This document shows positions 7,566 to 55,843 of a DNA stretch of 64,000 bases, one piece after another (position 1 is the first letter of the stretch; each line of letters begins with the position of its first letter). This DNA comes from Paludibacter sp. (GTDB lineage: Bacteria > Bacteroidota > Bacteroidia > Bacteroidales > Paludibacteraceae). The stretch spans positions 221,511-285,510 of the forward strand of contig JAFLKK010000005.1 in the NCBI GenBank assembly GCA_019163375.1, given 5' to 3'. The notes beneath the pieces are model-generated. The model was given only the letters and a program-made list of their open reading frames with translations, had not been told where the DNA came from and did no database searches. A program made the position numbers and the translations under genes.

Positions 7566-7835
7566 TTATTTCATCATGTCGGTTACATAAGGAAGCAACG
7601 CAATATGACGTGCTCTTTTCACTGCTTGAGCTACTTTACGTTGAAATTTCAACGAAGTACCTGTAAGGCGACGTGGAAGGATTTTTCCTTGTTCGTTCAA
7701 GAATTTTTTCAAAAATTCTGCATCTTTGTAATCGATGTAACGAATACCGCTTTTTTTGAAGCGACAGTATTTTTTCTTTTTTACATCAACTGAAGGTGGA
7801 GTTAAGTATCTGATATCTCCGTTGTTTGCTGCCAT
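7566..7835 (-). CDS. rpsR: 30S ribosomal protein S18
   Basis: A small basic protein of the 30S platform that pairs with S6. It contains [20 protein letters not shown] and the conserved [20 protein letters not shown] segment, and is 89 aa long. It starts 3 bp after rpsF ends. Its Shine-Dalgarno sequence (AAAGGAG) lies inside the 3' end of rpsF, so the two are likely translationally coupled. Confidence 0.98.
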
Positions 7836-7838
7836 GGT

Positions 7839-8189
7839 TTAGTTCTCCTTTACTTCTTTAGATTTAATACTTTTTCTTTTTTCAGCGTACTCGAACGCAT
7901 ATTTGTCCAAACGGAACGATAGGAAACGGAGTACACGCTCGTCACGACGGAATTGAGTTTCCAACGTAGCGATGATGGTAGGATCTGCATCAAATTGAAG
8001 CAATGAATAAAAACCTGACGATTTCTTTTGAATTGGGTATTGCAATTTCTTCAATCCCCAGTTTTCTTCGTTCGTGATAGTCGCGCCATTTTCTGTCAAA
8101 ATGGTCTTAAATTTTTCTACCGCTTCCTTTGCCTGTACATCAGACAAAACGGGAGTTAGAATGAAAACGGTTTCATAATGATTTAACAT
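7839..8189 (-). CDS. rpsF: 30S ribosomal protein S6
   Basis: First gene of the S6-S18-L9 operon; S6 forms a heterodimer with S18 on the platform of the 30S subunit. The ferredoxin-like fold is recognisable from [13 protein letters not shown] and [20 protein letters not shown]. The C-terminus is lysine-rich. The 116-aa length is normal. Confidence 0.97.
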
Positions 8190-8240
8190 ACTGTTTGTTA
8201 GCTTATTAGTAATTAATACTTAGTTTTTCTTAAAGCGGGG

Positions 8241-8270
8241 CAAAGATACGAATAATTCTTTGATTGACAA
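8241..8270 (-). promoter_or_regulatory. Promoter of the rpsF operon
   Basis: On the minus strand a TTG (plus 8268-8270) is separated by exactly 19 nt from TATCTTTG (plus 8241-8248). This matches the Bacteroidota sigma-70-type consensus well and lies about 50 nt before the rpsF start. Confidence 0.85.
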
Positions 8271-8417
8271 TACTATTTATTCAAAAAATCAATTATCAAA
8301 TTGTAAAATTGACCTACTTAGACAATTATTTAGTCTGAAAATATAATCAAAGCACTGAACAATGCCACCTAAAAATATGTTTATATGTTAAACAAAAAAA
8401 CTTATAAAACAGAATTT

Positions 8418-9416
8418 ATGGCAATTAAAGTAGCATTTTTCGATTCAAAACCGTACGACGAAGCATCATTCAAGAAAGCCAACGAAAAGTATGGCTTCGA
8501 TATTCGTTTTTACAAAGGACATTTAAACAAAGACAATGTATTGTTATCAAAAGGTGCAGACGTAGTTTGCATATTTGTAAATGCAGTAGTTGATGCCAAT
8601 GTAATTGATGATTTAATTGAAAATGGTGTGAAACTAATAGCACTACGCTGCGCCGGATACAATAATGTGGATATAAAAGCTGCACACAACAGAATAAAAG
8701 TTGTGCGCGTCCCGGCTTATTCGCCCTACGCAGTAGCAGAGCACACTCTTGCTTTAATGCTGACTTTAAACCGAAAAACACATAAAGCCTATTCCAGAAC
8801 CCGCGAAGGAAACTTCTCGCTAAATGGACTTTTGGGATTTGATATGCATGGAAAAACGGCCGGAATGATAGGTACCGGTAAAATTGCTAAAATTCTCATC
8901 CAAGCACTGAGTGGAATGGGGGTGAAAATAGTGGCGTATGATTTATATCCCGACAATGAATTTGCAAAGCAGTACAATGTTGAATATGTTTCGCTCGACG
9001 AACTGTACAGTCGCTCCGATATTATTTCACTTCATTGTCCATTAAACAAGGATACGGAATATATTATCAATACAGATTCAATCGCTAAAATGAAAGATGG
9101 TGTAATGATCATAAATACCGGACGCGGAAAATTAATTCACACACATGCACTTATAAAAGGACTCAAAAGTAAGAAAATTGGTGCGGCAGGTTTGGATGTA
9201 TACGAGGAAGAAAGTGATTATTTCTTTGAAGACAGATCAAATATCGTGATGGATGATGATGTCTTGGCCCGCTTGCTTTCGTTCAACAATGTGATTGTTA
9301 CTTCGCATCAGGCATTTTTTACTAAAGAAGCACTTGAAAACATTGCTGAAACTACTTTAGTGAATATTCAGGACTTTGTTGATGGTAAAACATTGATAAA
9401 TGAAGTGACTATATAA
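8418..9416 (+). CDS. ldhA: D-lactate dehydrogenase (NAD-dependent, LdhA type)
   Basis: Reduces pyruvate to D-lactate with NADH, a fermentative route for regenerating NAD+. It resembles E. coli LdhA along its whole length (KYIALRCAG-like and VRVPAYSPYAVAEHT segments). The NAD motif GTGKI is at 152-156, with D175 after the second strand. The catalytic residues are R236 (TGRGKLI), an E in VYEEE (about 263-265) and H297 (SHQAF). The frame extends upstream to 8385, but MAIKVAFFDS from the ATG at 8418 fits the family start, giving 332 aa. A strong terminator follows. Confidence 0.93.
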   Translation: MAIKVAFFDSKPYDEASFKKANEKYGFDIRFYKGHLNKDNVLLSKGADVVCIFVNAVVDANVIDDLIENGVKLIALRCAGYNNVDIKAAHNRIKVVRVPAYSPYAVAEHTLALMLTLNRKTHKAYSRTREGNFSLNGLLGFDMHGKTAGMIGTGKIAKILIQALSGMGVKIVAYDLYPDNEFAKQYNVEYVSLDELYSRSDIISLHCPLNKDTEYIINTDSIAKMKDGVMIINTGRGKLIHTHALIKGLKSKKIGAAGLDVYEEESDYFFEDRSNIVMDDDVLARLLSFNNVIVTSHQAFFTKEALENIAETTLVNIQDFVDGKTLINEVTI

Positions 9417-9430
9417 AGTTATAAGATTTT

Positions 9431-9476
9431 AAACGAAAACGGCTTTGAATTTTTGAATTCAAAGCCGTTTTCGTTT
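9431..9476 (+). terminator. Intrinsic terminator after ldhA
   Basis: A 20-bp perfect stem (arms 9431-9450 and 9457-9476, core AACGGCTTTGAAT) is A-rich on the left and T-rich on the right, so it may work in both directions. Confidence 0.85.
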
Positions 9477-9643
9477 AAAATAAAGCAATTTGTATTCAAC
9501 TTTAGCACTTTATTATGCAAAAGCAAAATGCATATATATCTAAAATCATATCATTTTGACAATTAATATCATCAGTTTATGACAATTTGAATGGCAAAAT
9601 TAAATTTTCCTACATTTTGGTAGGAAATATGGACATATTTATA

Positions 9644-9651
9644 TACTTTTG
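9644..9651 (+). promoter_or_regulatory. -7 element (TACTTTTG) of the ammonium transporter gene
   Basis: TACTTTTG fits TAnnTTTG and lies 22 nt before the ATG at 9674. The nearest TTTG upstream (9616-9619) is 24 nt away, longer than ideal. The element falls inside the long upstream extension of the frame, which argues for the start at 9674. Confidence 0.6.
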
Positions 9652-9673
9652 CACCAAACTAAAAAACACCATT

Positions 9674-10906
9674 ATGTTAGATGTAGGATTGACCACGTTT
9701 ATGATCCTGGCCACCAGCCTTGTCATGCTCATGACGCCCGGATTAGCCTTCTTTTACGGAGGATTAGGCTGTAAAAAGAATATTTTAAGTATTATGATGC
9801 AGAGCTTTGTTTCTATGGGAATAGGCACTGTACTCTGGTTTGCATTCGGTTATTCAGTTTGCTTTAGCGGCAACATGCATTCCGGAACCGATTTTTTTGG
9901 AATTATCGGAAATTTCGACAAAGCGTTTTATCACGGTATAACGCCATCAACACTTTACTCGCCCGAAAAACGGTTTCCGGAGTACATTTTTATTGCTTAC
10001 CAAATGATGTTTGCCATTATCACGCCAGCACTTATCACCGGAGCATTTATCAATAGGGTATCGTTTAAATCGTACATTGTTTTCCTTGTATTGTGGCAAA
10101 TTTTTGTGTATTATCCTTTCGTTCACATGGTTTGGGGCGGTGGATTACTTGCTGAGTGGGGTGTATTTGATTTTGCCGGTGGTATTACTGTACACGCTAC
10201 AGCAGGATTTGCAGCCTTAGCTTCGGTCTACTTCGTAGGTCGTCGTCAGGAGAAAACAGATCCGAACAACATTCCGTTGGTAGCTATCGGAACTGCTTTA
10301 TTGTGGTTTGGTTGGTACGGATTTAATGCCGGAAGTGAATTGGCGGTTAACTCTGTCACAGTTTCGGCTTTTCTAAATACTGATACCGCGGCTTCGTTTG
10401 CAGCTGTAACCTGGTTGTTGATTGAATGGAACACAGGCAAAAAGAAACCTACTTTTATCGGATTGATGACAGGTGCTGTTGCCGGATTGGCCACTATCAC
10501 TCCTGCTGCCGGATATGTAGATATTTATTCAGCAGCCATCATTGGCGTAATTGCTGCTATTGGATGTTTCTTAGCTGTAAAATTCAAAGAACACAAAGGT
10601 TGGGACGATGCGCTTGACGTATGGGGCGTTCACGGAATGGGTGGTGTAATTGGCACCATTTGTTTAGGGTTCTTTGCCAACAGTTCGATCAATGCAGCTA
10701 TTCCTAATGGATTATTTTTTGGAGGAGATGGAATGTTATTACTAAAAGAATGTGTAGCCATTTTATTTGCAATAAGTTATGCATTTATCTTCACCGTATT
10801 GTTATTCAGAACCATCAATAAATTTATTCCGGTGCGCGTAACCGATGTTGAACAAACCGTAGGATTAGATTTAATTCATCACGGTGAAGTAGCCCGACAA
10901 AGCTAA
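9674..10906 (+). CDS. amt: Ammonium transporter (Amt/MEP/Rh family)
   Basis: A trimeric inner-membrane channel taking up NH4+/NH3. About 11 hydrophobic helices can be read. Family signatures are TPGLAFFYGGL near the N-terminus, HMVWGGGLLAEWG, DFAGGITVHATAGFAALA, LLWFGWYGFNAGSEL and VWGVHGMGGVIGT, which includes the pore histidines. The frame extends to 9587, but the promoter element at 9644-9651 lies within that extension and MLDVGLTTFMILA is the usual start, giving 410 aa. No glnB-type regulator gene sits beside it, unlike many amt loci. A terminator follows. Confidence 0.95.
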   Translation: MLDVGLTTFMILATSLVMLMTPGLAFFYGGLGCKKNILSIMMQSFVSMGIGTVLWFAFGYSVCFSGNMHSGTDFFGIIGNFDKAFYHGITPSTLYSPEKRFPEYIFIAYQMMFAIITPALITGAFINRVSFKSYIVFLVLWQIFVYYPFVHMVWGGGLLAEWGVFDFAGGITVHATAGFAALASVYFVGRRQEKTDPNNIPLVAIGTALLWFGWYGFNAGSELAVNSVTVSAFLNTDTAASFAAVTWLLIEWNTGKKKPTFIGLMTGAVAGLATITPAAGYVDIYSAAIIGVIAAIGCFLAVKFKEHKGWDDALDVWGVHGMGGVIGTICLGFFANSSINAAIPNGLFFGGDGMLLLKECVAILFAISYAFIFTVLLFRTINKFIPVRVTDVEQTVGLDLIHHGEVARQS

Positions 10907-10928
10907 TTTCGACAAATAACATATTAAT

Positions 10929-10963
10929 AAGGGCAGTATTCTTTGATCAGAAATACTGCCCTT
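10929..10963 (+). terminator. Intrinsic terminator after amt
   Basis: The stem AAGGGCAGTATT (10929-10940) pairs with AATACTGCCCTT (10952-10963). The next gene converges from the other strand. Confidence 0.75.
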
Positions 10964-10990
10964 GTTGCTAATATGCTACGAATACGCCTT

Positions 10991-11689
10991 TTAATCAAGC
11001 TTTTCAGATACTTTCGCCAATATTTTCATATCTTTCATTTCCAGTGTGTTTTTTGAATATCCTATTAAAGAAGCATTTATCATGGCTGCAGCCAGGTCTT
11101 TCAATGTTATCACAGAATTGGGGAAAATCACTTTCATTATTGATATCAGCCCTTTCATATATTTGTATGTTTTGTAATAGGTATGCGTGGGTTTCAATGG
11201 TAAAAACGGTTCTATGCCGCCCGGACGAAAATTATGCACCTGCTTGAACGGCAATTTCATTAAATCATTTTCAGTGCGCCCTTTCACGCGTGCCCACATG
11301 GTTCGTCCTTTCTCAGTACTATCGGTACCGGTACCCGAAATATAACAAAACGTCATATCTGGATTAAGAGTAGCAAGTGTGTTAGCAAAGTTTAGTGTCA
11401 ATGTATAAGTCAGCTTGCTATATTCAGCTTCTTTCTTGCCCAATGAAGTAACCCCAAGACAGAAATAACACGCATTGTAACTTGTCAGTTTGTCATTCAA
11501 AGACGATAGATCAAAAAAATCTTTATGAATTATTTCAGTAAGTTTTGGATGTGAATACCCGCACGAAGTACGCGTTAATACCAATACCTTTTCCACTTCG
11601 GGGTGATGTAGACATTCATAAAGAACGCCTTCGCCAACCATCCCGGTTGCTCCTGTAATAATGACTCTTAGTTTATTCATTGGATGCAT
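10991..11689 (-). CDS. NAD(P)-binding epimerase-like protein (extended/atypical SDR)
   Basis: A Rossmann-fold protein with the dinucleotide-binding motif TGATGMVGEG at residues 12-21. After the fold comes CYISGTGTDSTEKGRTMWARVKG, resembling the atypical SDR group that includes HTATIP2-like and YbjT-like proteins. The substrate is unknown. The 232-aa length fits that group. An alternative start lies three codons downstream at 11680. The gene follows the SDR gene by 11 bp and is the third gene of a TetR-SDR-epimerase operon. Confidence 0.75.
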   Translation of the reverse strand: MHPMNKLRVIITGATGMVGEGVLYECLHHPEVEKVLVLTRTSCGYSHPKLTEIIHKDFFDLSSLNDKLTSYNACYFCLGVTSLGKKEAEYSKLTYTLTLNFANTLATLNPDMTFCYISGTGTDSTEKGRTMWARVKGRTENDLMKLPFKQVHNFRPGGIEPFLPLKPTHTYYKTYKYMKGLISIMKVIFPNSVITLKDLAAAMINASLIGYSKNTLEMKDMKILAKVSEKLD

Positions 11690-11700
11690 TTTTAAGAAAA

Positions 11701-12513
11701 TTACTTCATCATGCTTAGAAACATCTTATCAAACATTCTATCCGAAAGAATTTTCCGCATAAACAATATTATTTTCGCTCCACCTCCCGTAGCATACCGA
11801 GTTTTTGGTCTCGTGGCCATAGCTGCTTTCACTATTGTTTTGGCCACGACTATTGGCTGAGAACCCATTTTATATGTCCTCTCAAACATTTTCACATGTT
11901 TGTGTGCCAATGTTTTGTAGGCGGTGTTTCCGGATGTTTTCAACAGATTATCGCTGGCAATTGAGCCCCACTCGGTAATTATTGCCCCTGGTTTTATAAT
12001 AACCACATCTATTCCGAATTGTTTCAATTCCATCCGTAAACTATCGCTCAAGCCCTCAAGAGCATATTTAGTGGCATGATACCATGCCCCATGAGGTTCT
12101 CCTAAACTTCCGCCAATGGATGAAATATTGATAATTCTACCCGAATGTTGAACGCGCATGGTTGGCAAAACCAACTGTGTCAGTCGGGCTAAGCCAAAGA
12201 TATTTACTTCAAACTGATATTTTGCTTCAGAAAGCGGCACATCTTCCAATGCGCCAAACGAACCATAGCCTGCATTGTTTACTAACAAATCAATGCGATT
12301 TTCGTTTTGGAGAATCTCATTTACTCCATTTACCAACGACGTTTCGTCAGTTACATCCATGGCAATGAGTTTGACTCCCTCTTTTACCAGATCAGCCATT
12401 TTTTCTACTCTGCGGGCTGCACCATAAACCGTGTATCCTTTTTGAACCAATAGTTTTGCGGTTTCTTTTCCTATGCCGGAGGAAGCTCCGGTTACTAATG
12501 CTACTTTTTTCAT
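11701..12513 (-). CDS. Classical short-chain dehydrogenase/reductase
   Basis: NAD(P)-dependent oxidoreductase of unknown substrate. The cofactor motif TGASSGIG is at residues 8-15, NNAG follows the fourth strand, and the catalytic YHATK carries the Tyr and Lys, with the serine in NISSIGG. The 270-aa length is normal, and the C-terminal extension is basic and hydrophobic. It lies between tetR and the epimerase-like gene. A half copy of the presumed TetR operator (12549-12560) lies in the gap upstream, suggesting control by that regulator. Confidence 0.88.
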   Translation of the reverse strand: MKKVALVTGASSGIGKETAKLLVQKGYTVYGAARRVEKMADLVKEGVKLIAMDVTDETSLVNGVNEILQNENRIDLLVNNAGYGSFGALEDVPLSEAKYQFEVNIFGLARLTQLVLPTMRVQHSGRIINISSIGGSLGEPHGAWYHATKYALEGLSDSLRMELKQFGIDVVIIKPGAIITEWGSIASDNLLKTSGNTAYKTLAHKHVKMFERTYKMGSQPIVVAKTIVKAAMATRPKTRYATGGGAKIILFMRKILSDRMFDKMFLSMMK

Positions 12514-49235: not shown

Positions 49236-49856
49236 CTACACCTGAAATCTCAAAATGGTTTTCAACTTCTCTGCTGCTGTCTTTCGGGCATCCGACAAGT
49301 AGATCTCGCGGTGCGTTTTGGACTTTCGCACCAAGCCACGACTTTCGGCAAAGGCTTCCATGGTTGCAAAACTCTGCGGTTCGTTATCATAACTGCCAAG
49401 GTGCAGGATTTGAACACAGTTGCCCTCTTCTATCGTCTCGAACCTGACTTTGTCCAACAAAGGATGGGGCTTTTTCATTTTTACCTGTTCGATAATAGCG
49501 GAAGCATAGTCGGTAGTCACAAAATCGGGTTGACGAATCATCAGGTTAAACACCAGTGCGTCTTTATCCAGCGTCTCCATCGGTTTTTGTTTTGCTTCGT
49601 CGGTAATATTCCACACTCCTTCGAGCGGATAAACGCTGTAATCGTAGTAGCCGACAGGTGCTCGCCCCGATTTAGGACTCATCTTTACCGCATACGATAT
49701 AGAATACAACACAGCGATATATTCGGCGAAAGCGGGATGATTCGGATTTCCTTCGCCACGGATGCTAAAGAAATTCATAGCCGGAATAATTACTTGTTCG
49801 GGCTTACTTTTAGGAGCATAGAAAGCTTTCTCTTCTTTTTTCCAATCGTGTTTCAT
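49236..49856 (-). CDS. GyrI-like small-molecule-binding protein
   Basis: 206 aa from the ATG at 49856. FYAPKSKPEQVIIPAMNFFS, VYPLEGVW and PHPLLDKVRFETIEEG are typical of the GyrI-like family whose members bind small hydrophobic or cationic molecules. The start overlaps the stop of the upstream AraC gene (TAATG), so translation is coupled. It probably acts with that regulator, perhaps as a ligand scavenger. Confidence 0.82.
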   Translation of the reverse strand: MKHDWKKEEKAFYAPKSKPEQVIIPAMNFFSIRGEGNPNHPAFAEYIAVLYSISYAVKMSPKSGRAPVGYYDYSVYPLEGVWNITDEAKQKPMETLDKDALVFNLMIRQPDFVTTDYASAIIEQVKMKKPHPLLDKVRFETIEEGNCVQILHLGSYDNEPQSFATMEAFAESRGLVRKSKTHREIYLSDARKTAAEKLKTILRFQV

Positions 49857-50803
49857 TACAGTCTTTTGAGAGGGATACAAATGTCCAGAATAAATTTACG
49901 TTCGGGGTGTTGAGTATGGTCGTTGTAGTATAACTCGTAGTTATACCCTTCGCCCGGCTCGTAACCACTTTCGGTAAGCCACAGGCACATGGTGTTCCAA
50001 GCCTGTTCGAACTGAGCTTCTACAATTTCAAAATGTCCGACGGCATATTTTCCTGCCGGAACGGTCATCTTTCCTATTTCACCTTCTACTTTCACATCGG
50101 AATTTACAATAAGGCAGGCACTTTGACGCATTTTATCCATTTCAGTCACCGAGGGATCGTCGTGATACACGGTAAGGGTCTTCGCGTTGGGCGAATTGAG
50201 CAATCCACGTGGACCGGCGAACTGCATTAACTTACCATACGCTTGTCCGATTTGATTAAACGCACCCGTGTGACGACAATAAATAACTTGCAGCTCGGGC
50301 ATTTCTTTTACAATAACTTCTGTTTCCATAATAATGAGTTGTTTTAATTTGTTGGTACAAAATTCCTCATTTTGGATAACAAAGAGTTTACTTTTCTTGC
50401 TCAACTGTTGACCCATCTTGCTAAAGTAAATACCATCCTTTACCAGCAATGGTTTTTCCAACTGTCGGTATTCCTTGGCACTTACCCCAAAATGCTTCCG
50501 AAACGTGCGGCTAAACAACGACACACTGCTAAACCCGCAACTGTAAGCTATGTCGCCAATAACTTTGGATGGACTATCTTTTAGTTGTTGCGCTGCCTTT
50601 TCTATACGGATACGTTGCAGAAAATTAGCGGGGGTCTCTCCTACCACTACAGTAAAAATACGATGAAAATGGAATGGTGAGAAATGCGCTATCTGTGCCA
50701 TAGCATAGAGATTGATCGGTTGGTCGATATGCTGCTCTATATACTCCATGATGCGGTTAATGCGCGCAATGTATTCTTGTTTACTTAGTTCTTGCGAGGT
50801 CAT
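49856..50803 (-). CDS. AraC-family regulator with GyrI-like effector domain
   Basis: 315 aa. The AraC/XylS DNA-binding domain is N-terminal (about 10-110), with HFSPFHFHRIFTVVVGE and IGDIAYSCGFSSVSLFSRTF as its two helix-turn-helix units. A GyrI-like ligand domain follows from about 155 (METEVIVKEMPELQVIYCRH). This layout resembles Rob/SoxS-Rob-like activators of multidrug response. It is coupled to a second GyrI-like gene. A TATGTTTG element lies at 50826-50833 on the minus strand. Confidence 0.9.
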   Translation of the reverse strand: MTSQELSKQEYIARINRIMEYIEQHIDQPINLYAMAQIAHFSPFHFHRIFTVVVGETPANFLQRIRIEKAAQQLKDSPSKVIGDIAYSCGFSSVSLFSRTFRKHFGVSAKEYRQLEKPLLVKDGIYFSKMGQQLSKKSKLFVIQNEEFCTNKLKQLIIMETEVIVKEMPELQVIYCRHTGAFNQIGQAYGKLMQFAGPRGLLNSPNAKTLTVYHDDPSVTEMDKMRQSACLIVNSDVKVEGEIGKMTVPAGKYAVGHFEIVEAQFEQAWNTMCLWLTESGYEPGEGYNYELYYNDHTQHPERKFILDICIPLKRL

Positions 50804-50924
50804 ATTATCAATTGCTATAAGAGTGCAAACATAGTAATTTTATTTCTACCTTTATTTACTAATCTTGCTTTTTTCGAATCAATGCATCGTTCCGCAGGGT
50901 GACACAGTTTATTGAATAGACCCC

Positions 50925-51113
50925 CTTTCGATGACTATACTAGGCCTTTCGATGGCTACACTAGGCCTTTCGAAAGCTAAACTAGGCCTTTCGAAAGCTA
51001 AACTATGCCTTTCGAATGCTCTGCTAGGCCTTTCGAACTCTCTGCTAGGGCTTTCGAATGCTCTGCTATACCTTTCGAACGTTCTGCTAGGGCTTTCGAT
51101 GAGTGCTTGTAAA
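50925..51113. repeat. Tandem array, nine degenerate 21-nt units
   Basis: Nine consecutive 21-nt units begin at 50925, 50946, 50967, 50988, 51009, 51030, 51051, 51072 and 51093, each starting with CTTTCGA and most containing GCTAGG or a variant near the end. A plus-strand frame (50931-51170) stays open and would encode LGLSxAx heptads. The array lies between a minus-strand membrane-protein stop and the AraC/GyrI promoter. It is unrelated in sequence to the array at 32531 but has the same period. Confidence 0.9.
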
Positions 51114-52019
51114 CTACTTTTTAGTCAGCCTAAATACATAATTATCATTACTATACATTCCATTTATTAGAAAACCTCCTTCCTCGGCTAAAAACACTCC
51201 GGTTACAATGGCAACAATATCCACCAGCACCCGCAGGAAAAAGGATCGGAACACTTCGAATACGGATACCTGAAAAATGACCGGAACCAAGAAGTTGTAC
51301 AGTGCCCAGTTCAATCCGAACACCACCAATCCAAAAAGCAGGGCTTTTGCAAATGAATTATAGGCCGGAAAAGCATTGCGGTAGAACGAATAAAGAATCG
51401 CAATAAGCACGGCATTACCTCCGGTCCATAAAAAGGTGGCCAGCGGACTGTGCACATAAGCCGATTCGACTTCGATAACAATATATGCAAAGTAACGTCC
51501 AAAAAGGTACAACTCAACGATAGGAAACAGGGCAAACCAATAGGAGGCGTTTAATGTATGCGACAGTTTTCGGGTGGAATTGGTTCCGAAAAAGATCCCC
51601 GACAGTACACCCAGCAGCACGATGGGCAAGCCTTCGCTAATGCCGAAGATAATCTCAGCAGGCAGGGATGTTTGTTTTATTATCCCTGCTTCGAGCATGC
51701 CATAGGTCCACAAAAGGGCAAACAAGGTTCCGTAGATACAGCCCTTTTGCAATTTAGTGCCTGCCAGATTTTTCTGAACAACCAGAAACACGATTGCTAA
51801 AGCAAAATAGCAGATATAAAACATCCCTACAATCACCGGTTTGAAACCGATTGTTTTTACCAGCAGGCTGTAATCCATATTTTCTCCAATAGGATCCTCG
51901 CCCACCACAACTACTAACACGATACGAAATACGACTGCCAGGCTAATAATAAGAAACAGTTTCGGTACAAAATAAGGCTTGTTAGTAGCAGGTCTACTAT
52001 AGTTATTCATTTCACGCAT
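51114..52019 (-). CDS. Polytopic membrane protein of unknown function
   Basis: 301 aa with about eight hydrophobic helices and short loops; the first begins near residue 19 (PKLFLIISLAVVFRIVLVVV). I do not recognise the family. It starts 5 bp after the outer-membrane-like gene upstream and is cotranscribed with it from the promoter at 52706. Its stop is directly at the end of the 21-nt repeat array. A start three codons later (52010) is also possible. Confidence 0.7.
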   Translation of the reverse strand: MREMNNYSRPATNKPYFVPKLFLIISLAVVFRIVLVVVVGEDPIGENMDYSLLVKTIGFKPVIVGMFYICYFALAIVFLVVQKNLAGTKLQKGCIYGTLFALLWTYGMLEAGIIKQTSLPAEIIFGISEGLPIVLLGVLSGIFFGTNSTRKLSHTLNASYWFALFPIVELYLFGRYFAYIVIEVESAYVHSPLATFLWTGGNAVLIAILYSFYRNAFPAYNSFAKALLFGLVVFGLNWALYNFLVPVIFQVSVFEVFRSFFLRVLVDIVAIVTGVFLAEEGGFLINGMYSNDNYVFRLTKK

Positions 52020-52024
52020 TGGAT

Positions 52025-52603
52025 TTAAAATTTGACTGATACAGCAATATTACCGGCTAGAAAAACCGGTTCATCATTTTTGTAGTACGCATGAAAACTA
52101 TCGGGTTTATACCCGCTTTCAATGCCTTTGCCCACTATAAACTGTGGCGTGATCATTAAACGCAGATGTTTTATTCCCAGTCCGAATTCAATATCATACC
52201 CTGTTCTGAACTCACCCCACAGTTCGGCACTGTTGTAGTATTTGCGTTCATTTTTCTCGTAAAAAAAGTTGTAAGCCGGCCAAAAAGCATACTCGGCACT
52301 CCATCCTTTCCACAAATAACGACGATACCCGATGATCAAAGCCGGAGCGTGTGTGGCTCCAAAATCATAGCGTGCATTTTCGTAAGCCAGTCCCAACATA
52401 ATTTTGTTTTTCGGACTCAGGTCGTAAATATAAAGGGCACTGTAAAAATGTCCCACAAACTCCAATGCATTGAGTTGAATAGTGTGAGTGCGATGATAAG
52501 TGGAAACAGAATCGGTATTTTGTGCTCCCAAAGCAGCACTTGCACACACAGTAAACGCAATAATACAAAACATTTTTTTTACTGAAAATTGAATTGTTTT
52601 CAT
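52025..52603 (-). CDS. Small outer-membrane beta-barrel-like protein
   Basis: 192 aa. A signal peptide (MKTIQFSVKKMF, hydrophobic, cleavage near ALGAQ) is followed by about eight short amphipathic strands with aromatic ends (GYRRYLWKGWSAEYAFWPAY) and a final SVKF ending in Phe, as in outer-membrane barrels. I cannot name the family. Its promoter has two AraC boxes at 52734-52741 and 52755-52762, so it is a likely target of the neighbouring membrane AraC regulator. Confidence 0.7.
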   Translation of the reverse strand: MKTIQFSVKKMFCIIAFTVCASAALGAQNTDSVSTYHRTHTIQLNALEFVGHFYSALYIYDLSPKNKIMLGLAYENARYDFGATHAPALIIGYRRYLWKGWSAEYAFWPAYNFFYEKNERKYYNSAELWGEFRTGYDIEFGLGIKHLRLMITPQFIVGKGIESGYKPDSFHAYYKNDEPVFLAGNIAVSVKF

Positions 52604-52705: not shown

Positions 52706-52762
52706 CAAAAGTAAAATAATAGATTAGGCGGAAGGTCTCACTTTAGGCAAAGTAGGTCTTAC
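52706..52762 (-). promoter_or_regulatory. AraC-box promoter of the outer-membrane protein operon
   Basis: On the minus strand two direct boxes, GTAAGACC (plus 52755-52762) and GTGAGACC (plus 52734-52741), are spaced 21 bp apart. Twenty nt after the proximal box lies TACTTTTG (plus 52706-52713). There is no TTTG -33 box, as expected for an activator-dependent promoter. Confidence 0.7.
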
Positions 52763-52789
52763 TAAATGGCAGAATTAGTATCAGGTTAA

Positions 52790-52797
52790 GTAAGACT
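52790..52797 (+). promoter_or_regulatory. Third AraC box (GTAAGACT)
   Basis: A single box on the plus strand, facing the AraC gene, 85 nt upstream of a TATATTTG element (52883-52890). It could serve autoregulation. Confidence 0.45.
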
Positions 52798-52915
52798 TAT
52801 CCTCCCGTGACAATACAGCAGATATATTTACAGTTCATCAACTTTCCTGATTCTGATTATCAACATTTTGATACAAAATAACTATATTTGCAAAAAAAAA
52901 CAATAGCCGGGGTTT

Positions 52916-54037
52916 ATGTATTACATTTTCAGTATAGGTATTTTCGAAGCCGTATTTCTTTTTTCACTTATCGCTACCAAAAGAAAAAAAAGTGTAGCCG
53001 ACAGCCTCTTAGGTGGGGTATTTCTTTTGTTCGCTGTCAATATACTTTCGGCCTTTGTGGAGTTTTACAACCGTCAAAACGCTTATCCTTTCCCTGCCTT
53101 TATTAATACCACGCCACCTCTTATCCTGTTGCACGGCCCCATGCTGTGGTTTTATGTAAAGGCACAAACAGAACAAAACTTTCGGTTTAAGCCCCTTCAT
53201 CTCATTCACTTCCTCCCTTTTACTTTTTCAATAGCACATTTTAGCTACTTCATTTATCTTCAACCTCAAGCAGTAAAAATAAGCCTCGACGCGCACGAAG
53301 GATTTAAACAATTGCCTACCTATGGGCTGTTAATGATGATGATTCTTTTTTCGGGTCCTTTGTACTATATCTGGGCACTGAATATCTTGCGGAAATATAC
53401 GCAGCGCATCAAAAACTATTTCTCGGAAATTACACATATCGACCTGAAATGGTTGAGGGTGTTGTTGGTCTCATCGTTAGTAATGAGTTGTATTATCAAC
53501 GGAACCTTCTTTGTCGACTTCTTTTATCCGCTTGCTTCTTTCGAAAAGCTGCAGGCGGCCAGTTATATTTTTGTATCGTTGTATGTGTTGTTTCTGGGCT
53601 TCTTCGGGCATAAACAGGAATCGTTATTCACCAAAGTACCGTTAGAACAAGTAGAAGCACCGGCCAAAGTTGCGACCAATATTAGTAAAGCGGACGAAAA
53701 ATTTGTGTACACATTGATGGAAACAATGAAAGAAAAGAAACCGTACCTCCATCCCGATCTCACCTTATCGGCACTGAGCGAGGAAATGCAGGTATCGGAG
53801 GAATATCTTTCGGGTATACTCAACAACCAACTTCAGCGCAATTTCTTCGATTTTGTAAATCATTACCGGGTGGAAGATTTTAAAGTTCAATGTCAGGATG
53901 CAAAAAACAATCATCTCACCCTGATTGCCATTGCCTACGACTGTGGCTTCAATTCCAAAGCCACCTTCAACAGGGTATTTAAAAACATGACAAGCCTCAC
54001 TCCTACTCAGTTTAAACAAAGCGCGCAAGGAAAGTGA
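52916..54037 (+). CDS. Membrane-anchored AraC-family transcriptional regulator
   Basis: 373 aa. The N-terminal half has about seven hydrophobic helices (first at residues 2-20, last near 213-230), and the C-terminal 100 residues form an AraC DNA-binding domain (DLTLSALSEEMQVSEEYLSGIL and IAIAYDCGFNSKATFNRVFK). The DNA-binding domain is tethered to the inner membrane, a pattern frequent in Bacteroidota. It is divergent from the outer-membrane-like operon and upstream of a flavodoxin and aspartic-protease pair. Six GTRAGACY boxes flank it. Confidence 0.88.
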   Translation: MYYIFSIGIFEAVFLFSLIATKRKKSVADSLLGGVFLLFAVNILSAFVEFYNRQNAYPFPAFINTTPPLILLHGPMLWFYVKAQTEQNFRFKPLHLIHFLPFTFSIAHFSYFIYLQPQAVKISLDAHEGFKQLPTYGLLMMMILFSGPLYYIWALNILRKYTQRIKNYFSEITHIDLKWLRVLLVSSLVMSCIINGTFFVDFFYPLASFEKLQAASYIFVSLYVLFLGFFGHKQESLFTKVPLEQVEAPAKVATNISKADEKFVYTLMETMKEKKPYLHPDLTLSALSEEMQVSEEYLSGILNNQLQRNFFDFVNHYRVEDFKVQCQDAKNNHLTLIAIAYDCGFNSKATFNRVFKNMTSLTPTQFKQSAQGK

Positions 54038-54122
54038 GACTTCTTTTTTGCTCATTTTTTAGAAAGTGAGACCTCTTTCCGGCTTATTAAGACCTCCAGA
54101 CTCCCCCTTTTCCATTTCTTTG
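54034..54122 (+). promoter_or_regulatory. AraC-box promoter of the flavodoxin-protease operon
   Basis: Three plus-strand boxes: GTGAGACT (54034-54041, overlapping the AraC stop), GTGAGACC (54066-54073) and TTAAGACC (54087-54094). The last two are 21 bp apart. Twenty nt later lies a -7-like TTTCTTTG (54115-54122). The layout equals the divergent promoter at 52706-52762. Confidence 0.65.
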
Positions 54123-54152: not shown

Positions 54153-54635
54153 ATGAAAATGAAAACAGCCATTATCTATGCCACTCATCACGGAACAACC
54201 GAAACGGTGGCAAAACAAATTCAACAACAGTTGCTACCGCAGCAGGTAGAACTCATTAATCTGGCACACAACAAGCAACCCGACATTAGCACCTACGACA
54301 GAATTGTAGTAGGTAGTTCCATTCATGCGGGCAAAAATCAAACAGTGGTGCAGAAATTCTGCTCGAAAAATATGCCCGAACTGCTGCAAAAACAGATAGG
54401 CTTGTTTCTGTGCTGCCTCAACGAGAAAGAGTTTGAGCAAAGTATGGCAAACGCCTATCCCGAGATATTGCGTAACCATGCTTTCGACATTCAATTGATG
54501 GGCGGGGAATATAAAATGGACAGAATGAATTTTATCGAACGCTTTCTGGTTAAGAAAATAGCCGGAGTAACCCAGTCACAATCATTGATTAACTATAACA
54601 ACATCAATAATTTTGTAAAAAGCCTACGAAAATAA
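54153..54635 (+). CDS. Flavodoxin-domain protein (HemG-like)
   Basis: 160 aa. The FMN phosphate loop is ATHHGTTETVAKQI (residues 10-23), and VVGSSIHAGK (about 52-61) resembles the menaquinone-dependent protoporphyrinogen oxidase HemG. The C-terminal FIERFLVKKIAG fits that group. A role in heme synthesis is possible but not proven. It is the first gene after the AraC-box promoter, followed in 29 bp by the protease gene. Confidence 0.82.
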   Translation: MKMKTAIIYATHHGTTETVAKQIQQQLLPQQVELINLAHNKQPDISTYDRIVVGSSIHAGKNQTVVQKFCSKNMPELLQKQIGLFLCCLNEKEFEQSMANAYPEILRNHAFDIQLMGGEYKMDRMNFIERFLVKKIAGVTQSQSLINYNNINNFVKSLRK

Positions 54636-54664: not shown

Positions 54665-55843
54665 ATGAAGAATAAAATTTTAATAGTAACCATTTTAATA
54701 AGCGCATCTGTCTTCTCTTTTGGGCAGATCGCTAAAATTCCATTCCAATTGTTGGAAAGTAATTTCGTATTTATCAAACTCCAAATAAATAACAGCACCG
54801 ACAGCCTGCTGTTTTACTTCGATACCGGTGCAGCTACAACACTTATCGACTCAAGCGTAGCTCAGAGAACAGGTTTAGTTTCCGATTACAAACTTAAAGT
54901 AGATGGTGCGGGAGGTGAGCGTAATTACTTGGTGGCTTTGAACCAGACCGTTCATCTATCCAACACCATAAAAATAGACAGCACACATATTGTGTTCGAC
55001 GATTTATCCAGATTACAAGCCACTATGGGTGTGCATTTTGATGGCATCGTCGGGTATTCAATTCTGAAGCATTACAAAACCAAAGTCGACTTTGACAATA
55101 AGGTTATTGAACTCTATTCGTTCGAATCGGAATTAGATCTGAAGGAATACTCGGAATTACCATTTTCATTAAAGAAAGAAATCTGTGTCCCCCAATTTCC
55201 AATAACCGTTACATTGAAAAACGGAGAGCAATATACCGACACGGTTCTCTTCGACAGTGGCGCTGCTTTGTCGCTGTCTATCAACACACCGTACAAATCA
55301 AAACACAATATCAAAGAGAAAACAGGTAAAACAATTGTTAGCGAAAACAATAACCTCAGCACCACTTCTATTCAGGAAGAAGGGTTGATCCAATCGTTGC
55401 AAATTGGCAGGTTCAAATTCGAAAAAATGGCAATTTGTCTTTCCAACGATAAGAAAGGTGTCAGTTCCTACGAAGGCTATCTGGGAATTTTGGGAAATAA
55501 AATCATCAACAGGTTTAATTTCATTGCCGACTATCACAACAAGAAACTGTACCTTAAACCCAATGGTTATTTCAATTCTTGTTTCGAATTGCCAGCCAGC
55601 GGCATAAAACTGAAATTGGTCAACGGTCGGGTATTGGTGGCTAGTGTGATAAAAACAGCCGAGGCGTTTAAAAAAGGACTTCGTGAGAATTTCAGAATCA
55701 TTGCCATCAACGGCATTAAAACAACCCAACTTGCTACTTATCGTAGTCTGCTTAAAAAAGAAAATACAAGCGTCAAAATTGTTTACGAGGGAAATAATGG
55801 AAGCATTCAAAAGTTGCATCTGGCAATAAAAAGCCTACTATAA
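54665..55843 (+). CDS. Retropepsin-like aspartyl protease with PDZ domain
   Basis: 392 aa, exported (hydrophobic signal MKNKILIVTILISASVFSFG). Two retropepsin-like halves each keep the catalytic aspartate: DTGAATTLID (about 53-62) and DSGAALSLSIN (about 198-208). A PDZ-like domain closes the C-terminus (VLVASVIKTAEAFKKGLREN, then FRIIAINGIKT). Such proteins occur in the periplasm of Bacteroidota. It is likely cotranscribed with the flavodoxin gene. Confidence 0.82.
   Translation: MKNKILIVTILISASVFSFGQIAKIPFQLLESNFVFIKLQINNSTDSLLFYFDTGAATTLIDSSVAQRTGLVSDYKLKVDGAGGERNYLVALNQTVHLSNTIKIDSTHIVFDDLSRLQATMGVHFDGIVGYSILKHYKTKVDFDNKVIELYSFESELDLKEYSELPFSLKKEICVPQFPITVTLKNGEQYTDTVLFDSGAALSLSINTPYKSKHNIKEKTGKTIVSENNNLSTTSIQEEGLIQSLQIGRFKFEKMAICLSNDKKGVSSYEGYLGILGNKIINRFNFIADYHNKKLYLKPNGYFNSCFELPASGIKLKLVNGRVLVASVIKTAEAFKKGLRENFRIIAINGIKTTQLATYRSLLKKENTSVKIVYEGNNGSIQKLHLAIKSLL

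Follow-up and report, generated by a model that had tools for sequence, protein, structure and literature searches.

An AraC-type regulator with a predicted seven-helix membrane sensor and a conserved array of putative operator boxes beside its own gene

How does a transcription factor that is built into the membrane find the promoters that it controls? Membrane-embedded AraC regulators are common in Bacteroidota, with several in each genome, and no described operator was found for them in the open-licence literature, a source whose silence is weak evidence. The question is raised in concrete form by a locus of Paludibacter sp., which lies in the 64,000-nucleotide stretch of contig JAFLKK010000005.1 analysed here (the window). 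An earlier note, made from the letters of this DNA, had proposed that a membrane-bound AraC regulator activates two operons through six GTRAGACY boxes. Our analysis arrives close to that proposal and extends its anatomy: sequence comparison points to an AraC-type regulator with a predicted seven-transmembrane (7TM) sensor, and to an array of putative operator boxes adjoining its own gene that is real and conserved.

The regulator and its two arrays in the window

The regulator is laid out as seven predicted membrane helices (residues about 2-233), a linker (236-255) and an AraC-type DNA-binding domain (287-368). In the AlphaFold2 model (mean pLDDT 83.6), long helices occupy residues 2-20, 27-54, 66-85, 93-114, 136-168, 178-203 and 209-233 and are followed by the linker and the AraC domain, which bears out the earlier description of about seven membrane helices ahead of such a domain. 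The protein is predicted to sit in the membrane with its helices and its DNA-binding domain in one chain, and the modelled sensor is a 7TM bundle that may be GPCR-like in its fold. Pfam GPCR families are not among the matches at E≤1 in the 15 orthologues examined. HTH_18 and HTH_AraC match all 15 of them and are the only Pfam families to do so, and the top ten Foldseek rows of the regulator are mostly AraC-type domains.

The boxes, spacings and gaps given in the earlier note all agree with the window sequence, and the elements are collected in Table 1. Five of its six boxes match GTRAGACY exactly and the proximal box of the 3′ array departs from it by one letter. Together they make up two arrays, to which a box at 52777-52784 that had been overlooked also belongs. 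The plus-strand box at 52790-52797 is better read as the inverted half of the divergent array than as an independent site; it forms the unit GTCTTA-N7-TGATAC, and orthologous arrays show the counterpart GTCTCA-N6-9-TGAGAC. GATAC variants like that of the divergent distal box also occur at three orthologous loci (L090, L098, L110).

Bacteroidota promoters carry TAnnTTTG at -7 and TTTG near -33. In both window promoters the direct-repeat spacing is exactly 21 bp and the gap from the proximal box to the -7 element exactly 20 nt, as had been claimed, and by eye neither has a good -33 element. The -7-like element of the 3′ array is one base off TAnnTTTG; its letters and its place are identical in L084, an orthologue with 70% identity. 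The TGA of the distal box of this array is the stop codon of the regulator gene. The divergent array shows the whole design, with a -7, three boxes and an inverted partner. The window's 3′ array has three boxes without the inverted half, whose place is held by the degenerate letters gcgcgcaa (54021-54028). A divergent array was seen at none of the other 27 orthologous loci, where 0.6 to 6.6 kb upstream were covered, and in the window's genome control has probably been extended to a second operon.

Table 1. Coordinates of the regulator, its arrays and the adjoining genes in the window
Feature	Position	Strand	Remark
Predicted membrane protein, 301 aa, second gene of divergent operon	51114..52019	-	ORF
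Small OMP-like gene, 192 aa, first gene of divergent operon	52025..52603	-	no Pfam/NCBIfam match
Divergent array, -7 element TACTTTTG	52706..52713	-	20 nt past proximal box
Divergent array, proximal box GTGAGACC	52734..52741	-	21 bp from middle box
Divergent array, middle box GTAAGACC	52755..52762	-	exact GTRAGACY match
Divergent array, distal box CTGATACT	52777..52784	-	22 bp beyond middle box
Divergent array, inverted half-site	52790..52797	+	GTAAGACT on +, AGTCTTAC on -
Regulator, 373 aa, membrane sensor and AraC-type domain	52916..54037	+	HTH_18 E=7.6e-14
3′ array, distal box GTGAGACT	54034..54041	+	position kept in orthologues
3′ array, middle box GTGAGACC	54066..54073	+	32 bp from distal box
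3′ array, proximal box TTAAGACC	54087..54094	+	21 bp from middle box
3′ array, -7-like element TTTCTTTG	54115..54122	+	20 nt past proximal box
Flavodoxin (Flavodoxin_5), first gene of 3′ operon	54153..54635	+	Pfam E=6.1e-30
Clan AA aspartic protease-like protein, second gene of 3′ operon	54665..55843	+	Asp_protease_2 E=7.4e-11

The number of GTRAGACY matches over the whole window is unremarkable, at 6 against 3.7 expected, a count that 19 of 100 shuffles reach. Their clustering stands out, with five in 1.34 kb against 0.08 expected (Poisson 2e-8, a post hoc value). A first degenerate pattern was too loose in the window's own genome, giving 118 matches against 215 for its reversed control, and a pattern of two boxes and TTTG was used instead. 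This pattern, NTGAGACY-N13-NTGAGACY-N24-TTTG, occurs at up to one mismatch only twice in the whole 4.66-Mb genome, both times within this 1.4 kb, and its reversed control not at all.

Arrays beside orthologous regulators

The regulator belongs to a clade of at least 28 orthologues, the window included, with an SH-aLRT support of 100 in a tree of 118 rows from which 16 of 134 loci were omitted as falling outside 320-430 aa. The loci from named genomes are the best 80 from an alignment query, so that the orthologue total is a lower bound; a single-protein query of the same genomes had given no match. L103 and L109 were dropped as loci taken to be identical to L089 and L096 (L089 and L103 share a contig), and L113, a partial regulator at a contig end whose 3′ flank has no array, was kept out of the 28. 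The members include Natronoflexus (L089), Marinilabilia, a Balneolaceae MAG and Maribacter (L108), the last of which places orthologues beyond the order. Their distribution is patchy. In 393 genomes drawn from the order there are one relative at 70% (G390), a group at 39-47% and then, setting aside a partial match at 40% (G258), matches at 35% or less. The 60 nearest genomes give only matches of 6.6e-54 or weaker, the orthologues lying in other families of the order, and the other 35 genomes of the window's genus give none better than 9.5e-51. In the family of G390, 1 of 13 genomes has the regulator. Of 395 genomes sampled from the class, the one that includes the window is the sole match at E≤1e-60, a cut-off that would also miss G258. 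This patchiness, in the window's own genus and in the family of G390, suggests horizontal movement of the regulator.

An NTGAGACY-like array was found for 27 of the 28 orthologues, directly 3′ of the regulator gene in 22, where it often overlaps the stop codon, and displaced in 5; the remaining locus (L106) has none on its 4.5-kb contig. The conservation that the earlier note had proposed to look for is thus present, and the strict pattern (≤2 mismatches) is found for 21 of 28, that is, at 19 loci and in the displaced arrays of G249 and G379. Six adjacent arrays (L087, L093, L099, L105, L108, L111) fall short of it; they are counted because of where they stand and because parts of the boxes are present. 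The 350 kb surrounding the 28 regulators contain 20 occurrences of the strict pattern, spread over 19 loci; all are 3′ of the regulator and on its strand, the sole exception being the window's divergent array. When the 3′ flank alone is considered, the pattern is present for 16 of 28 orthologues and for none of the 106 other regulators, a set that includes L113, which is incomplete and probably an orthologue (Fisher 1.5e-13, relatedness ignored).

Of the 22 adjacent arrays, 21 have their inner boxes at a distance of 21 bp (20 bp in L099), and the proximal box stands 20 nt from the -7 in 21 of 22 (21 nt in L087), where the fitting one of several -7-like words was chosen and the array of L111, whose -7 starts with A, was read by eye. 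In the 13 arrays with both inner boxes scoring at least 10 of a possible 13.5, the two distances are always 21 bp and 20 nt; in the other 9 at least one inner box scores below 10. The distal box, where listed, lies 32-33 or 21-22 bp from the middle box, which is three or two helical turns. Over 25 rows, pairwise identity is 26% in the spacer columns, which are in effect random, and 73% in the box columns, the latter figure being partly inflated by the selection of the boxes. At the level of sequence, comparison across these loci thus establishes that the array exists, what its geometry is and that it is linked to regulator and operon.

A script found the inverted half in 19 of the 22 adjacent arrays, as GTCTCA in 15 and as a one-letter variant in 4, standing 6-9 nt ahead of TGAGAC-like letters and within the last codons of the regulator. 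This location raises the thought that what is conserved on the 3′ side is coding sequence or an RNA element, such as the protein's C-terminus or an attenuator, rather than a protein-binding operator. The distal palindrome does overlap the gene end and could form an mRNA hairpin, and GTCTCA stands in one phase, reading Val-Ser, in 14 of 19 cases, so that phase taken by itself would leave room for a constraint on the protein. Two other phases are used in the remaining 5, however (2 and 3 cases), and four of the five displaced arrays, which lie clear of the regulator gene, still have the inverted half. In addition, pairing between the direct repeats is impossible, and their helical spacing to the -7 is fixed. 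We regard a coding or RNA origin as the least probable of the alternatives and keep to a protein-binding operator. The regulators L092, L093, L105, L108 and L111 end in Val-Ser-stop, the codons being supplied by the half-site GTCTCA, and these protein termini have perhaps been shaped by the operator.

In the displaced cases, array and regulator are separated by 1.5 kb (L101), 4.9 kb (L102), about 5 kb (G165) or 12.6 kb (G249), or lie on different contigs (G379). The genes after the array are an OmpW-like lipoprotein and DUF6544 in G249 and G379, a flavodoxin in L101 and, in G165, a frame taken by eye as the start of a flavodoxin, so that flavodoxin or OmpW-like genes follow four of the five (not L102). 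The inverted half is kept in all but L101. Because displaced arrays still precede genes of the regulon, the array appears to travel and stay with its operon while co-occurring with the regulator across genomes. A separate observation concerns G379, where the oriented locus L094 has, directly downstream of the regulator (7582-12225), a 1547-aa frame with a start, MKKILGLDLGTNSIGWAL, that looks Cas9-like by eye.

The displaced arrays show that array and regulator gene are separable, and the binding of the boxes by the regulator is a prediction; both would suit a reading in which the boxes belong to a different protein, say a soluble regulator with its gene elsewhere, and the 7TM protein is a mere neighbour. 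Against this, the arrays track the regulator over the 393 genomes: an array at up to one mismatch is present in 9 of the 15 genomes that have the regulator and in 13 of the 378 that count as lacking it (Fisher 3.7e-9); these genomes are a drawn sample with at most five candidates scored in each, so that some of the 378 may have the regulator. The 13 are about what the reversed pattern gives (11 genomes); 10 of their arrays fall inside open frames of at least 296 codons, and none lies within 1.5 kb of a homologue of a regulon gene. Regulator and array also share a contig in 26 of 27 cases, and paralogous regulators have different boxes at the equivalent place, so that the identity of the box follows the clade of the regulator. 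Ownership of the boxes by another protein therefore seems very improbable, and the adjoining membrane regulator is the preferred reader of the array.

Operon genes and a proposed mechanism of activation

The genes that recur after the arrays are C1, Flavodoxin_5, DUF6544 and an Acg-family FMN oxidoreductase; they do not come next at L111, where a 788-aa protein comes first, or at L108, where two small frames follow. In C1, a barrel of roughly eight strands, a lipoprotein-type cysteine is invariant; the protein has no Pfam family, and its best Foldseek match is OmpW/OprG (E 4.6e-5). It was not found in the window's genome in a search that had no positive control. The regulon is very small, with one clear array in most genomes and two in the window's. 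Because OmpW-like, flavodoxin and nitroreductase genes recur, its content suggests the handling or uptake of small hydrophobic, redox-active compounds at the envelope, and a regulon this small may also hint at what is sensed, namely small hydrophobic or redox-active compounds.

The window's own operons add less familiar genes. The 192-aa protein was called OMP-like by eye, from a signal peptide and barrel-like strands. In G249 a homologue with 51-53% identity occupies the fourth place in the array-driven operon; for two others (G154, G354) the 1.5 kb covered shows no array at up to three mismatches. A relationship between this protein and the OmpW-like C1 was considered and dropped, the hhalign probability being about 0.1 of 100. 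The loci retrieved from other genomes contain no homologue of the 301-aa membrane protein, which has no Pfam or NCBIfam match, or of the aspartic protease-like protein. Downstream of the 301-aa gene, before the following minus-strand gene begins, lies a tandem array (50924-51099) of a 21-bp unit, CCTTTCGAAGGCTATACTAGG in consensus, with 8.4 copies and 84% match. Further along, at 49236-50803, an AraC-GyrI regulator (49856-50803) is followed on the same strand by a GyrI-like protein (49236-49880), the two overlapping by 25 bases.

For activators of the AraC/XylS family, a common arrangement is a pair of bound direct repeats at a distance of 21 bp, the proximal repeat lying at -35. On this model, we consider it likely that the seven-helix sensor-AraC protein is a local, membrane-embedded one-component switch which activates envelope and redox operons through NTGAGACY arrays; binding, activation, the arrangement of the dimers and the signal are all parts that we infer. 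The AraC domain would recognise NTGAGACY, with two protomers on direct repeats 21 bp, or two helical turns, apart. The proximal repeat would occupy the -33 position, 20 nt from the -7, so that the regulator would replace the -33 contact and recruit RNA polymerase as in class II activation. A third site, the palindrome GTCTCA-N6-9-TGAGAC, is located two or three turns upstream, in most cases spanning the point where the regulator gene ends, and could serve to load a second dimer. The targets would be the OmpW-like lipoprotein, flavodoxin, DUF6544 and the Acg-type nitroreductase, to which the window would add the OMP/membrane-protein pair and the aspartic protease.

The sign of the regulation is read from position alone: activation is suggested because the -33 is missing and a box stands in its place. 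With the same regulator and the same sites, the protein could instead repress both operons over the -33/-7 region until a signal lifts the repression. A proximal box beside the promoter is compatible with this, and the upstream palindrome could support looping of the kind known from AraC. However, both window promoters lack a good -33 by eye and the -7 varies, which suits promoters that depend on an activator, and the 20-nt gap, which 21 of 22 arrays and further paralogue groups retain, is stiffer than repression requires. Repression is thus unlikely, although it is the strongest of the competing explanations, and activation is the reading that we carry forward.

Known systems and paralogous regulators

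Among the closest known systems are the class II activators of the AraC/XylS family, such as AraC at araI1-araI2 and XylS at Pm, whose mark is a direct-repeat operator of about two turns beside the core promoter. The likeness lies in the AraC-type domain with two HTH motifs, in the two 21-bp direct repeats and in the proximal repeat set against the core promoter, an arrangement of about two turns that is found in 21 of 22 arrays. The present system differs from these activators in its predicted 7TM sensor, its -7-only core promoter of the Bacteroidota type, its upstream palindrome and the siting of its array at the 3′ end of the gene that encodes the regulator. Bacteroides hybrid two-component systems (HTCS) are likewise Bacteroidota membrane regulators with an AraC output domain. 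They share output domain and predicted membrane location with the present protein, but kinase and receiver families are absent here: neither histidine kinase or receiver families nor 7TMR-DISM domains have a Pfam match at E≤1 in the 15 members, which places the protein apart from both classes. TfoS is AraC-type, a term that the text of PMC11856585 does not use. CadC (PMC7888679) and TfoS/ChiS (PMC11856585) are alike in joining sensor and DNA-binding domain in one membrane chain that works on DNA from the membrane, as the available parts of these papers describe, and CadC is presented, in the accessible part of PMC6320335, among proteins with one membrane helix, against the seven predicted here. 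In Saccharophagus degradans, 16 of 31 AraC-type regulators are reported to be membrane-bound, several of them near enzyme genes (PMC2386152, as far as its available text goes); this organism belongs to another phylum, and that text describes no operator or geometry. PMC1183210, in the portion at hand, leaves single-component regulators out.

The paralogous 7TM-AraC groups were picked after the sequences had been seen, P1 and P6 contain close relatives, and the alignments anchored on the -7 take the -7 that maximises conservation, without a null; the counts that follow are to be read in that light. In P1, a box occupies -28..-21 relative to the -7 in 18 of 19 rows, with exactly GTAGGTCG in 11 and related letters in 7. 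For P7/P10, from Flavobacteriaceae, Saprospiraceae and Balneolaceae, 11 of the 15 rows aligned show a TTGAGTCG-like box at this offset, and P6 has no clear box at a shared offset. The best 3′ word beats 20 shuffles and the 5′ flank in 14 of 19 members of P1, 13 of 15 of P6, where the word is an A/T run, and 13 of 16 of P7/P10; P4/P5 and P3 have no 3′ word above shuffles. Ten P1/P10 members too short for the tree (L121, L140, L143, L146, L162, L163, L166, L172, L175, L177) were placed by eye. Over 105 other regulators, 12-mer direct repeats give only a weak peak at 42 bp. Because the offset recurs in P1 and P7/P10, these alignments argue, with caution, for a box-to--7 offset that is common beyond the focal clade and for a shared mode of polymerase contact.

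These observations lead us to a broader, tentative proposal, which we hold possible at somewhat below an even chance. The regulator may represent a phylum-wide family of GPCR-like-7TM-AraC proteins in which every clade has an array of its own design, written at the 3′ end of the regulator gene itself and in part within the final codons, and in which 20 nt separate the proximal box from a -7-only promoter; the transcription factor would carry its target along as a mobile cassette and keep the locus near the site of membrane insertion. For CadC, relocation of the target caused almost no change in search time and proximity was not required, according to the accessible part of PMC7888679. Since CadC needs no proximity to its target, the 3′ position of the array may reflect cassette transfer rather than search kinetics. 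If the rule of box, 21 bp, box, 20 nt and -7 applies, it would allow target operons of an uncharacterised receptor family to be predicted from sequence. The system would also be a clean case in which to study transcription-factor action from the membrane, and the same layout recurs in distantly related bacteria.

Two sets of words at the 3′ ends of paralogous regulators deserve mention in their own right. A GTRCTACTTTATAAAGTAGGTCGCAC-like array precedes TACTTTTG in the 3′ flank of L117, L121-L125 and relatives, from Paludibacter, Salegentibacter and others. At the regulator 3′ ends of L131, L142, L162, L163, L175, L143, L147 and L149, which are Flavobacteriaceae/Balneolaceae paralogues, stand GTCTCAAATCGTATTTGAGAC-type words that form a palindrome similar to the focal one.
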